Position numbers and translations under genes: made by a program. This document shows, piece by piece, positions 27,503 to 51,289 of a stretch of DNA of 64,000 bases. The stretch spans positions 2,148,501 through 2,212,500 of the forward strand of contig NZ_CP015027.1 in NCBI RefSeq assembly GCF_002077155.1, in the 5' to 3' direction. Source of the stretch: Sporosarcina sp. P33 (GTDB lineage Bacteria; Bacillota; Bacilli; Bacillales_A; Planococcaceae). Under the pieces are notes generated by a model, which had not been told where the DNA came from, did no database searches, and saw only the letters and a program-made list of their open reading frames with translations. The stretch's first letter is position 1. Each line of letters starts with the position of its first letter.

Positions 27503-27540
27503 AGAAATGGTATTTGAACAGAGAAATGGTATTTGAACAG
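27503..27540 (+). repeat. Perfect tandem 19-bp repeat directly upstream of the kinase ribosome site
   Basis: The unit AGAAATGGTATTTGAACAG occurs twice in a row, the second copy ending 18 bases before the start codon. DeoR-family repressors often bind direct repeats, so this is a candidate operator. A chance short duplication is the alternative. Confidence 0.85.
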
Positions 27541-44985: not shown

Positions 44986-45153
44986 AACGGTAATTAGATG
45001 AATTGGTACCCAACAAGTTTAAAAGGGAATCCGCGAAAAACGGAGCTGCCCCCGCAACTGAGGGCACGGACGACTGTCTTAGTAAATCCACTGCTTCGGC
45101 GGGAAGGAAAGATGGAAGGAAGATGTGCCAGCCAGTAGACCTGCCAATCGTCT
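44986..45153 (+). promoter_or_regulatory. Cobalamin riboswitch of the RNR operon
   Basis: Landmarks of the B12-aptamer occur in order: GGTACC, AAAAGGGAA, the paired GAATCCG/CGGAGCTGCCCCCGCAACTG segment, the B12-box-like CCACTGCTTCGGCGGGAAGG, and the GCCAGCCAGTAGACCTGCC closing segment. It is followed by an intrinsic terminator (45249-45280), so binding of adenosylcobalamin would stop transcription before the reductase genes. Regulation of a B12-independent reductase by B12 implies a B12-dependent class II enzyme elsewhere in the genome (inference). Confidence 0.9.
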
Positions 45154-45248
45154 CAGCAAAACATTCTTCGGGGTTGGAGAGTGAAAGCAAACAGCAGTGT
45201 TTTTTTGCCTGCCTAAACCTTTCTACTATCTGCCATACGTCAGCTGTC

Positions 45249-47543: not shown

Positions 47544-47968
47544 TTGCCTACGCATCCTGGAGCGGCAATACACAGGAAGTGGCAGAGTTAATTACAGAAA
47601 ATCTGGAAAGTGAAGGCATCGAAGTCGATACACATCGTATCGGCCTCGGTGTGATTCCGGATATTAGCGAATACGACGCGTTCTGCATCGGTTCTTTCAC
47701 CTGGGAAAAGGGCGCAACACCGGATGAAGTCAAAGATTTCGTGGCAGACATCGGCTATAAGCCCGAGCCTGTCTACGTCTTCGGGACGGGGGACACACAG
47801 TTTGGAGGCGACGAGCTATTTTGCAAAGCTGCAGACAAACTTGCAAAATTCTACCACTCTCCCTTTGAACCATTAAAGATTGAACAAAGCCCGCGCGGCG
47901 TACAAGAACAAACAGTTATGAACTGGACGAAAGGAGTGCTCGACCATTGGCGACACTTACACGAGTAA
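47531..47968 (+). CDS. Flavodoxin within the class I RNR operon
   Basis: A ~145-residue flavodoxin. The FMN phosphate loop is AYASWSGNTQEVAEL, and the later loops are IGSFTWEKGATPDEV and VFGTGDTQFGGDELFC. It is placed between the alpha and beta genes, overlapping both. Its size and motifs fit a long-chain-like flavodoxin, not the smaller NrdI, although a NrdI-like role in reducing or activating the beta metal site is a natural idea. GTG 47531 (or 47528) follows GAGGAG at 8 (or 5) bases. Confidence 0.88.
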   Translation: MSFLIAYASWSGNTQEVAELITENLESEGIEVDTHRIGLGVIPDISEYDAFCIGSFTWEKGATPDEVKDFVADIGYKPEPVYVFGTGDTQFGGDELFCKAADKLAKFYHSPFEPLKIEQSPRGVQEQTVMNWTKGVLDHWRHLHE

Positions 47969-48984
47969 AAGTATTGAACCCGGCAAATCCGAATAAAGCG
48001 ACAGCAATATTCGGCGGGGAAGCAAGCGGCATCTTGAACTGGAATGACCTCGCGCACCCGCATTTCTATACACTGCGTCAGCGCATCCGTTCTCTTTTTT
48101 GGACAGCAAATGAAGTAGACATGACGCAGGACGTCAAACAGTTTGCAAGTCTGACTAAAGAAGAGCAATCTGCATTTCTGAAAATCATTGGTTTGCTTGC
48201 GACACTGGATGGTCCGCAAACCGTCATCGCAATGAAAATTGCAGACTTTACAACAGATCCTTCCGTCAAGTCGATTATGGCAACGATTGCCGATCAGGAA
48301 AGCGAGCATAATCACAGTTATGCATACGTGCTGTCATCGGTCACAAATCTTGACAAGCAGATGGAATCTTTTGAGATGGGCCGTACAGATGAAGTGTTAA
48401 TGAAGCGTAATGAACGGATTGTAGAAGTTTACAATGAATTTGCAGAGAATCCGACGATTGAAACAGTACTAAAAGCAATGGTCTACACCACGCTGCTTGA
48501 AGGACTCTTCTTCTACAGCGGCTTCGCATTCTTCTATAATTTGGCGCGTCATCAGAAAATGGTCGGCACATCTACGATGATCTCCTATATCAATCGTGAC
48601 GAACTTCAGCACGGCAAAGCAATCAGCGACATCTTCCGCGCAGCACTGGCGGAAAACCCTGAGTACAATACGGATGAATTCACGGAATGGATCTACGACC
48701 AATTCCGCCACTCCGTAGAACAAGAAGTCATCTGGAGCCGCTATGTACTTGGTGACATCGATGGTCTAGAAATGGATGAAATGGAAGGCTACGTAAAATA
48801 CCGCGCCAACAAAATGCTGCGCATGCTCGGCCTGAGCGAAATCTATCCCGAGTTTACAGACAACCCAATGAAGTGGATCCGAGCGTACGTTGACAACTTC
48901 GACGACACGAAAACGGACTTCTTCGAGCAGACAAGCCGCCAGTATGTGAAAACCAGTGATTTAAATGGCTTTGATGATTTGTAA
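47947..48984 (+). CDS. Class I ribonucleoside-diphosphate reductase, beta (metal-cofactor) subunit
   Basis: A 345-residue ferritin-like RNR beta subunit. The six dimetal ligands are all present: Asp88 (TLDGPQ), Glu118 and His121 (ESEHNHSY), Glu185 (LLEGLFF), Glu219 and His222 (DELQHG). The Tyr125 position four after His121 matches the radical-forming tyrosine of class Ia/Ib. The C-terminal tail is acidic. The start TTG 47947 is 10 bases after AAAGGAGTG and overlaps the flavodoxin gene by 22 bases, so translation is coupled. A terminator follows directly. Confidence 0.94.
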   Translation: MATLTRVKVLNPANPNKATAIFGGEASGILNWNDLAHPHFYTLRQRIRSLFWTANEVDMTQDVKQFASLTKEEQSAFLKIIGLLATLDGPQTVIAMKIADFTTDPSVKSIMATIADQESEHNHSYAYVLSSVTNLDKQMESFEMGRTDEVLMKRNERIVEVYNEFAENPTIETVLKAMVYTTLLEGLFFYSGFAFFYNLARHQKMVGTSTMISYINRDELQHGKAISDIFRAALAENPEYNTDEFTEWIYDQFRHSVEQEVIWSRYVLGDIDGLEMDEMEGYVKYRANKMLRMLGLSEIYPEFTDNPMKWIRAYVDNFDDTKTDFFEQTSRQYVKTSDLNGFDDL

Positions 48985-48994
48985 TACGTAAGAG

Positions 48995-49026
48995 AAAGCG
49001 GAATCCGTAAAGGGTTTCGCTTTTTT
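48995..49026 (+). terminator. Intrinsic terminator of the RNR operon
   Basis: AAGCGGAATCC pairs with GGGTTTCGCTT (two G-U pairs), followed by a T6 tract. It precedes the 21-bp repeat array. Confidence 0.85.
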
Positions 49027-49066
49027 GGTGTGTAGGGAGGAGAGGGGGAAGGGCGTATCCGGATTC

Positions 49067-49675
49067 GCTCATACTACTTTCGCAAGCGCTCATAGTCACC
49101 CCGCGTGCGCTCATCCCGCCTTCGCAACCGTTCATAGTCGCCCCGCATGCGCTCATACTACTTTCGCAAGCGCTCATAGTCACCCCGCGTGCGCTCATAC
49201 TACTTTCGCACGCGCTCATAGTCGCCCCGCGTCCGCTCATATTGCCTTCGCAAGCGCTCACAGTCACCCCGTGTCCGCTCATCCCGCCTTCGCAAGCGCC
49301 CCTAGTCACCCCGCGTCCGCTCATACTGCCTTCGCACGCGCTCATAGTCACCCCGCATCCGCTCATCCCGCCTTCGCAACCGCTCATAGTCACCCCGTGT
49401 CCGCTCATCCCGCCTTCGCAAGCGCCCCTAGTCACCCCGTGTCCGCTCATCCCGCCTTCGCAACCGGTCATAGTCACCCCGTGTGCGCTCATCCTGCCTT
49501 CGCACGCGCTCATAGTCGCCCCGCGTCCGCTCATATTGCCTTCGCAAGCGCTCACAGTCACCCCGTGTGCGCTCATCCCGCCTTCGCAAGCGCCCCTAGT
49601 CACCCCGCGTCCGCTCATACTGCCTTCGCACGCGCTCATAGTCACCCCGCGTCCGCTCATCCCGCCCCCGCAAGC
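49067..49675. repeat. Array of 29 tandem 21-bp repeats
   Basis: Every unit is exactly 21 bp and nearly all start GCTCAT, with no insertions or deletions over 609 bp. Two unit types alternate: odd units carry YTTCGCA near their end, and even units carry AGTCRCCCCG in the middle, giving a 42-bp dimer. A higher-order copy is visible: units 8-13 match units 22-27 except for one base in unit 10/24, i.e. a 294-bp segmental duplication. The array lies between two convergent terminators (RNR operon and acetyl-CoA transferase). Both strands read as long open frames of 7-residue repeats only because 21 is divisible by three. Function unknown. Confidence 0.97.
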
Positions 49676-49694
49676 GCTCAATCAAAAAAACAAC

Positions 49695-49731
49695 GCAAAA
49701 AAAGACAAGCGGACCTAAGTCCGCTCGTCTT
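49695..49731 (-). terminator. Intrinsic terminator of the acetyl-CoA hydrolase/transferase gene
   Basis: On the minus strand AAGACGAGCGGAC pairs with GTCCGCTTGTCTT (one mismatch) around a 4-base loop, followed by T6. It lies between the repeat array and the gene. Confidence 0.85.
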
Positions 49732-49744
49732 CATAGTTATGAAA

Positions 49745-51265
49745 TTATTTTTGTGCTTCAGCAGCTTTGTGCATTGTCTTGTTTTTTGCAAGATTTACGT
49801 GCCAAGATAGGGCTTCTTCCAGAATGTGTGGAGTCTGTCCGCCAACTTGTTCACATGCTCTGTTGTAGTAATCGCGCAGCTCTTCCTTGAAATCAGGGTG
49901 AGCACAGTTTTCAATCAACAGTTCTGCTTTTTGTCTTGGAGCCAGGCCGCGAAGATCCGCATAACCTTGTTCCGTTACAATTACGTCTACGTCGTGCTCC
50001 GTGTGGTCCACGTGAGAAGAGAAAGGTACGATTGATGACACGTCTCCGCCTTTTGCGTAAGACTTCGTAACGAAAATCGCGATGCGCGCGTTACGAGCGA
50101 AGTCACCAGATCCGCCAATACCATTCATCATGCGTGTTCCAGCAACATGTGTAGAGTTAACGTTTCCGTAGATGTCCAGTTCAAGCGCCGTGTTGAAGGA
50201 AATAACACCCAAACGACGAATTACTTCCGGGTGGTTTGAAACTTCCTGTGGACGGAATACTAGCTTATCGCGGTATTTAGCGATATCGTCCTGGAAGCTG
50301 TCCAAACGCTTTTTAGAAAGTGTTAATGAAGTCGCAGAAGCGAATTTCACAACGCCGTCATCGATCAAGTCGAAGATTGCATCCTGAAGAACTTCAGAAT
50401 ATACTTCGATGTCTCTGAATTCAGATGTTCTCATGCCGTCAAGAACAGCGTTTGCTACTGAACCAACACCTGATTGAAGAGGAAGAAGTGACTCGTCCAT
50501 GCGACCCAATTTGATTTCGTCACGGAAGAATGTCAGCAAGTTGTTTGCAATCTCCTGTGTCTCTTCATCTGGAGGAACGATAGGGGACGGAATATCTCCC
50601 TGCTCTGTAAGAACGATACCGCGTACCTTTTCAGGATCCACTTTGATTCCAGGTGTACCGATTTTATCTGTCACGCTGAAAACAGGAATTTCTTTGCGGT
50701 CGCCCTGGTATTCAGGAATATAGATATCATGCAAACCTTCAAATTCAACAGGAGCATTCACATTCAATTCGATGATAACATTCTTCGCTTCCTGAACAAA
50801 AATAGGGGAGTTACCAACAGAACCAGTCGGAATAATCTGACCATCTTCTGTAATTGCAGCTGCTTCGATAATTGCATAGTCAACAGGGCCGATTACGCCT
50901 TGACGAATCCATTCAGCTGTATGAGAAAGATGCTGATCGATATAGAATGACTCACCATTGTTGATTTTACCGCGCATTGTCGGGTTACCCTGATAAGGAA
51001 CGCGTAAATTAATTACGTCTGCTTCAGCCATCAGCTGGTCAACGTTTGGCCCCATGGAAGCACCGGTGAAAACGTTTACTTTGAAGTCTTCTTTTTTACC
51101 TCTTTCAGCCAATGCCAATGGAACCGCTTTCGCGTCCCCGGACAAAGTAAAGCCGCTCAGACCCAATGACATTCCATCCTCGATCCAAGAAGCTGCTTCT
51201 TCTGCTGTTACAATTTTGTCTTTTAGTGCTTCACAACGAAGTACTTTATTTAGTTCGTTTGCCAC
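49745..51265 (-). CDS. Acetyl-CoA hydrolase/transferase family protein (succinate CoA-transferase-like)
   Basis: A 506-residue family I CoA-transferase. Both halves of the fold are visible: DGMSLGLSGFTLSGDAKAVPLAL in the N-terminal domain, and the active-site Glu in YSEVLQDAIFDLID plus SGVGSVANAVLDG and GIGGSGDFARNARIAIFV in the C-terminal domain. Members move CoA between acetate, succinate or propionate, or hydrolyse acetyl-CoA. Such enzymes support acetate overflow and reuse. GTG 51265 is preferred over ATG 51289 because AAGGTGG lies 8 bases upstream of it, while nothing precedes the ATG. Confidence 0.92.
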   Translation of the reverse strand: MANELNKVLRCEALKDKIVTAEEAASWIEDGMSLGLSGFTLSGDAKAVPLALAERGKKEDFKVNVFTGASMGPNVDQLMAEADVINLRVPYQGNPTMRGKINNGESFYIDQHLSHTAEWIRQGVIGPVDYAIIEAAAITEDGQIIPTGSVGNSPIFVQEAKNVIIELNVNAPVEFEGLHDIYIPEYQGDRKEIPVFSVTDKIGTPGIKVDPEKVRGIVLTEQGDIPSPIVPPDEETQEIANNLLTFFRDEIKLGRMDESLLPLQSGVGSVANAVLDGMRTSEFRDIEVYSEVLQDAIFDLIDDGVVKFASATSLTLSKKRLDSFQDDIAKYRDKLVFRPQEVSNHPEVIRRLGVISFNTALELDIYGNVNSTHVAGTRMMNGIGGSGDFARNARIAIFVTKSYAKGGDVSSIVPFSSHVDHTEHDVDVIVTEQGYADLRGLAPRQKAELLIENCAHPDFKEELRDYYNRACEQVGGQTPHILEEALSWHVNLAKNKTMHKAAEAQK

Positions 51266-51289
51266 GGTATTATCCACCTTACCTTTCAT

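Follow-up and report, generated by a model that had tools for sequence, protein, structure and literature searches.

The array at 49067-49675 of the window, by which we mean the whole 64,000-nucleotide stretch analysed, is one of at least 40 in the chromosome of Sporosarcina sp. P33 that mark mostly gene 3' ends in the direction of replication. We give a probability of about one half to the reading that some 30 sites for a putative sequence-specific DNA-binding protein are lined up in it, all facing one way and one to every two turns of B-DNA. What carries the analysis beyond one window is the presence of some 40 copies across the genome, a core that is near-invariant against near-random linkers, a polarity relative to replication, kept sites, and the occurrence of other cores.

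A phased array between convergent genes

From 49067 to 49675, direct reading of the sequence gives 29 successive 21-bp units with zero indels, odd units being of type A and even units of type B, and a 30th core, GCTCAA, stands at 49676-49681 right after unit 29. TRF reports a 42-bp unit in 14.3 copies, with 85% matches, 0% indels and a score of 833. Between units 8-13 and units 22-27, offset by 294 bp, 1 base in 126 differs. Re-reading and TRF thus bear out what the earlier note had described: 29 indel-free units of 21 bp, the A/B alternation and the 294-bp duplication. The 29 units carry 19 distinct linkers, duplicated linkers among them, and are better phased as CGCTC(A/T) plus linker, with the start one base earlier (49066). 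The features of the locus are as follows.

47947..48984, plus strand: nrdF, ribonucleotide reductase small chain (Pfam PF00268), the leading-strand neighbour
48995..49026, plus strand: hairpin followed by a T run, probable nrdF terminator (by eye; missing from the terminator scan's list)
49066..49681, plus strand: array, 29 complete 21-bp units and a last core; the core strand is the replication-leading strand
49214..49339, plus strand: units 8-13, copy 1 of the higher-order duplication at 294 bp; units 22-27 differ from it at 1 of 126 bp
49508..49633, plus strand: units 22-27, copy 2 of the 294-bp higher-order duplication
49701..49732, minus strand: terminator-like hairpin of the convergent acetyl-CoA hydrolase gene (terminator scan)
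49745..51289, minus strand: acetyl-CoA hydrolase/transferase gene (Pfam PF13336 and PF02550), the convergent lagging-strand neighbour

As nrdF (+) and the acetyl-CoA hydrolase/transferase gene (-) flank the array, the flanking genes are convergent; nrdF ends 81 bp before the array phased from 49066. The array had been placed in a pocket between two terminators. The minus-strand one (49732-49701) was recovered by the scan, while the plus-strand one (48995-49026) is seen by eye only and the scan does not list it. Elsewhere in the window there is a cobalamin riboswitch at 44986-45162 (+; Rfam RF00174, 88.6 bits), upstream of the ribonucleotide reductase genes located before the array, and a two-copy exact 19-bp tandem duplication at 27503-27540.

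At least 40 host arrays share a core and a spacing

Combining two BLAST queries with pattern hits and fetched stretches, we obtained, as a lower bound, 40 arrays of at least four units sharing the core CGCTC plus A or T in the one-contig, 3,235,441-bp host genome. Short arrays outside this count were also seen at 2607919-2608913 (+), where a short 7-unit element occurs in five copies about 215 bp apart, and at 2734393 (-), the latter lagging. Genome-wide, a pattern of two GCTCAT separated by 15 bases (at most one mismatch) has 489 matches against 9 for a reversed-pattern control, and four phased GCTCA cores (at most one mismatch) have 403 against 0. Arrays with a CGCTC-type core are absent from eight random 15-kb host stretches and from the dnaA stretch. 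They sit mostly at gene 3' ends, and 28 of the 40 lie clockwise of dnaA, an about twofold excess that recurs in the relative G039 (29 of 43). Four arrays lie behind rRNA operons, starting 63-65 bp past the 5S gene (1206918, 1870822, 1896227 and 1976918; L137, L140, L141 and L142). At two further loci (L149, 3827-4361; L158, 3851-4355), paired 7-unit arrays stand about 360-390 bp apart, each within a longer dispersed repeat sharing flanks. The CRISPR-like look of a flank at L153 was dropped, as no repeat array was found there.

The general host unit is CGCTC(A/T) plus linker, and its sequences are diverse (472 distinct among 685 units of 21 bp). In unit pairs from different arrays, with degenerate units placed by phase rather than by core (the arrays themselves still having been found by core), agreement is 0.89-1.00 at core positions 1-5, against 0.29-0.37 at linker positions 10-12 and 14-17, where 0.274 is expected. 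Constraint is thus specific to sites within the unit, unlike in an unconstrained minisatellite. In six relatives, units located by their linkers have a core mismatch of 0.081 per site against 0.120 in linkers, the linker value being capped by the search and off-target hits being included. Another test of core conservation in six relatives was conditioned on the core. These tests are weak, and we relied on the host between-array comparison instead. C precedes the core in only about 0.42 of units, which limits any match to Chi, AGCGG in B. subtilis, to that fraction; moreover, AGCGG itself is found 180 times leading and 98 lagging in the eight control stretches, but the arrays bear its complement on the leading strand. 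Chi was rejected as the wrong way round.

Adjacent spacings in the host stretches (n=602) are 21 bp in 558 cases, 20 bp in 43 and 22 bp in one. The absence of indels is therefore a property of the window array and not a rule of the family, but phasing by two helical turns is upheld, as the 21/20-bp spacing persists even in old, diverged arrays. The earlier note had seen in the lack of indels a hint of selection on phasing or of recent amplification; we attribute it mostly to homogenisation within arrays, since units inside one array have a linker similarity of 0.84 (11 arrays tested), although the diverged arrays keep the 21/20-bp spacing as well.

Twelve of the 14 short arrays (at most 9 units) measure 145-146 bp, with 6 or 7 units. 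By eye, several retain a recognisable unit-type order, so short dispersed elements may predate the long arrays. Their length is near the gyrase footprint. This fits a topology element, in which phased flexible DNA lying downstream of transcription units would wrap gyrase or some other topoisomerase and sequence would be secondary to bendability. The near two-turn spacing with differing cores is also in keeping with it, as are the location at gene 3' ends and the four arrays that start 63-65 bp beyond rRNA operons. Wrapping, however, needs neither exact core conservation within a genome nor strand polarity, and we consider such an element improbable.

Array direction follows replication

We set the host leading strand from dnaA at 1855661 (+) and assumed the terminus to lie opposite; the array at 286909 is within about 50 kb of it. 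The core is on the replication-leading strand in 36 of the 40 host arrays. All 26 arrays of more than 9 units are leading, against 10 leading and 4 lagging among the short ones (Fisher p 0.011), the four reversed arrays all being short. Between convergent genes, 16 of 16 arrays are leading, short ones included; p is 3e-5 on the assumption of independence, and two of the arrays are near-copies separated by 390 bp. Because arrays share ancestry, these p values are too small. Isolated CGCTC cores in the eight control stretches have no leading bias (67 leading, 105 lagging).

Polarity recurs in relatives. In G039 (dnaA 2844702), 41 of 43 arrays are leading, the exceptions being a 15-unit array at 1783888 and a neighbouring 6-unit array, and in convergent gaps the raw count, any insertion sequences included, is 15 of 16. 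All six BLAST matches in G193 are leading, as are all 10 in G127, a genome of another genus with the core ATACTCG and dnaA at 337; two 4-unit arrays of G127, at 1193688 and about 1198068, are lagging.

The excess of leading arrays among the long ones is what the main rival to protein binding predicts, namely satellite DNA shaped by orientation-dependent slippage. Slippage or unequal exchange would seed and grow arrays in one fork-relative direction only, the arrays would survive where promoters are unharmed and have no host function, and amplification and dispersal would themselves keep the cores. Homogenisation within arrays and the predominance of 3' ends agree with such an origin. On the other hand, convergent short arrays in the host are leading too, and neutral decay should strike core and linker equally, yet linkers are near random between arrays and cores near invariant. 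We hold a satellite without function to be possible, if doubtful.

In co-directional gene pairs, replication and transcription are largely confounded. Array polarity tracks replication better than transcription, as judged from the convergent sites, from the long host arrays at 2463499 and 2505794, which are leading though the upstream gene is on the other strand, and from the G039 array at 324149, which is leading between two lagging-strand chemotaxis-receptor genes. The last is the one that we used as a clean case among nine co-directional G039 cases with lagging-strand genes and leading arrays, several of which are flanked by IS66/Mutator-type transposases or weak ORFs. The same three arrays count against an RNA or transcription element made from the upstream gene, be it a Rho-dependent terminator, a 3'-UTR or a structured RNA. 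Such an element would explain why host arrays come after the end of a co-oriented gene at 16 of 16 convergent sites and at most co-directional ones, and why they are C-rich (C 0.38, G 0.21). Yet composition is C 0.29 and G 0.24 in G039, and the tested G127 array is A/G-rich; a Rho utilisation site, C-rich and G-poor, accordingly matches the host arrays, matches G039 weakly and does not match the G127 array (C 0.15, G 0.31), and was rejected on this difference between lineages. Terminator-like hairpins also stand on both sides of the window array. A structured RNA, one of the earlier suggestions, finds no support in folding, with z values of -1.3 and -0.9 for a 294-nt part of the array on the two strands, and besides the cobalamin riboswitch located elsewhere no Rfam family reaches gathering scores in the window. 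We rate an RNA element as very improbable.

Sites are kept while letters are replaced

A family-wide search of 250 genomes found at least 20 exact pairs in 12 of 57 same-genus genomes, the host included, and the named contigs rich in such arrays are from Sporosarcina. The earlier note had held that an array confined to this assembly would speak against a non-coding array; arrays are present beyond it. With a G039 list drawn from 40 candidates scored out of 71, 11 of the 40 host arrays have a G039 counterpart with matching flanks (68-86% identical over at least 500 bases) in the same orientation, and none of the flank matches between host and G039 arrays is in the opposite orientation. At these 11 shared sites the linkers are no more alike (0.459) than those of mismatched partners (0.435, sd 0.019). 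That 11 sites are common to both genomes despite linker turnover tells against satellite DNA. In G039, IS66-type and Mutator-type (PF00872) transposase genes lie between array pieces at L302, L303, L304, L312 and L319 (at L304 by ORF sizes only), as though insertion into arrays were preferred or harmless; that insertion sequences lie in or beside arrays there with no visible penalty is what a satellite would allow.

The window's own site can be followed further. We located nrdF in 60 of 61 Sporosarcina genomes and read the downstream regions in 50 of these 60. Among the first 30 nrdF loci, 10 (host included) have downstream CGCTC arrays, all in the same direction. A period scan gave z of at least 5 in 16 of the 50 regions, every one at lag 20, 21, 40 or 42; the other 34 lack a strong period, one of them, in G182, having a short CGCTC array. 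Genomes without an array often have a different gene downstream of nrdF (by eye, uncounted). At one and the same site, unit numbers run from 7 to 38 (by core counts or by reading the sequence), a species-level comparison and a further point in line with satellite behaviour.

By eye, the cores at the nrdF site are CGCTC (9 genomes), ACCGMGCCAA (2), CGCATAA (2), CGTCCAAAG (2) and GGCGRKCATAA (1). A midpoint-rooted tree built from nrdF and its upstream region joins the two ACCGMGCCAA genomes to two CGCTC genomes with support 0.78, within a clade of support 1.0. Since they group among CGCTC genomes, the core at this site probably changed while the site was kept.

The nrdF site also bears on whether the array encodes a protein of seven-residue repeats. 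One strand has open frames of 261 and 158 codons, the other one of 275 codons, and these span much or all of the window array, but a stop-free 21-bp unit opens frames by itself, all frames at the nrdF site are closed in 5 of 10 genomes (G002, G094, G110, G128 and G196), and 20-bp units break the frame. A coding repeat is almost certainly the wrong explanation, and the array is non-coding, as had been proposed.

A wider class of 20/21-bp arrays

In 1.2 Mb sampled from G237, G199 and G127, 30 of 33 tracts with a lag match of at least 0.55 have lags of 20, 21 or 40-42 (one N run excluded), and the remaining ones have lags of 12, 18 and 30. At a lower threshold of 0.48, shuffled copies of the sample gave one detection; in the real stretches, weak detections at other lags were numerous between 0.48 and 0.55 and came at least in part from coding sequence. 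Coiled-coil coding sequence also yields weak 21-bp periods (control stretches L163 and L165), so that a weak detection at lag 21 does not count as evidence. A 400-kb sample of G199 (L262-L281) contains at least eight core families of 20/21-bp arrays, their polarity mixed or too sparse to judge. The reversed control pattern, which pairs two TACTCG at a distance of 21 bp, is enriched in six genomes from four further genera (G005, G035, G049, G127, G170 and G180). There it marks a second family of 21-bp arrays, whose core is AATACTCGCGGA in G049 and G127.

A proposed model of oriented protein binding

The kept core against near-random linkers, the two-turn spacing, the single direction and the conserved places together speak for a protein that would recognise double-stranded DNA from one helix face. 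Putative monomers could line up on that face, as plasmid Rep proteins do on iterons, and form an oriented patch that would be tolerated where no promoter can be harmed. The direction of the patch might be read by something moving with or following the fork, such as the replisome, a translocase, or a topology or nucleoid factor. Unit number and linkers would shift by slippage or unequal exchange, binding would preserve core and spacing, and a change of specificity in a lineage's binding protein would lead to cores being swapped at the same sites.

One protein per lineage is too simple, given the number of core families in G199. Against the binding-array reading as a whole stand the reversed arrays (4 of 40 in the host, two in G039 and two in G127), the several core families of G199, and the shared ancestry of arrays. 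The suggestion of a protein-binding or chromosome-positioning array, made at the outset from the window's letters, stays a live possibility on account of core, spacing, polarity and kept sites. A broader proposal, which we advance tentatively and think less likely than not, is that phased arrays may serve as polar landmarks across the family, with fast-evolving putative proteins and their cores changing together between lineages as sites, spacing and replication direction are kept.

If the binding reading is true, dozens of direction-marked gene-end arrays in Planococcaceae have had their letters rewritten between species with place, spacing and direction constant. Chromosome architecture of such a kind would be new, and it would offer a natural experiment in the co-evolution of DNA-binding proteins and their sites as well as a direct route to testing how replication direction is written into chromosomes. 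Under the satellite rival, the arrays would still be a clear case of bacterial satellite DNA with fixed monomer length and replication polarity.

Comparison with known systems

Plasmid iterons are direct repeats bound by Rep proteins. Like them, the arrays have direct repeats about two helical turns apart (21, 20 and 22 bp in 558, 43 and 1 cases), a conserved core and the same helix face. They differ from iterons in forming tens of chromosomal arrays with replication polarity and species-specific cores at the same site, and Rep genes are absent among 20 scanned neighbour proteins, 18 of which flank arrays other than the window's; the window array is flanked by nrdF and the acetyl-CoA hydrolase gene.

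The REP/BIME elements of enterobacteria are palindromic, dispersed at gene 3' ends and lineage-specific, with a possible link to gyrase. Dispersal at 3' ends, lineage specificity and a possible gyrase link are shared, but the arrays are non-palindromic direct repeats at fixed helical spacing, without an excess of hairpins (fold z -1.3 and -0.9). Bacterial minisatellites, or VNTR, are tandem, homogenised within arrays and variable in unit number. The arrays resemble them in all three respects, unit number varying between species, and depart from them in a core near-invariant between arrays, near-random linkers, one period, polarity and kept sites. CRISPR arrays have repeats of about 23-50 bp with unique spacers. 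There too a constant part alternates with a variable one, but here the constant part is about 6 bp, the period is 20/21 bp and linkers are copied within arrays, which confirms that CRISPR-type spacers are lacking.

Polar octamers of the KOPS type are short leading-biased sequences thought to be read directionally. PMC5993296 describes AIMS in similar terms, as dispersed single octamers that increase towards the terminus. Here, by contrast, isolated cores are without leading bias (67 leading, 105 lagging), for which reason identity with AIMS or KOPS was rejected, and the signal lies in the phased arrays.

As a tandem repeat the window array is ordinary. As a set of properties, it departs from iterons, AIMS/KOPS, REP/BIME, CRISPR and plain minisatellites, in each case in a defining feature that we tested, going mostly by commonly used definitions. 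We found no published description of such arrays in the open-access literature, and the idea of an undescribed Planococcaceae repeat family is thereby supported. The relatives, with places, spacing and direction kept and letters rewritten, suggest that the arrays may belong to an undescribed class of DNA landmark.
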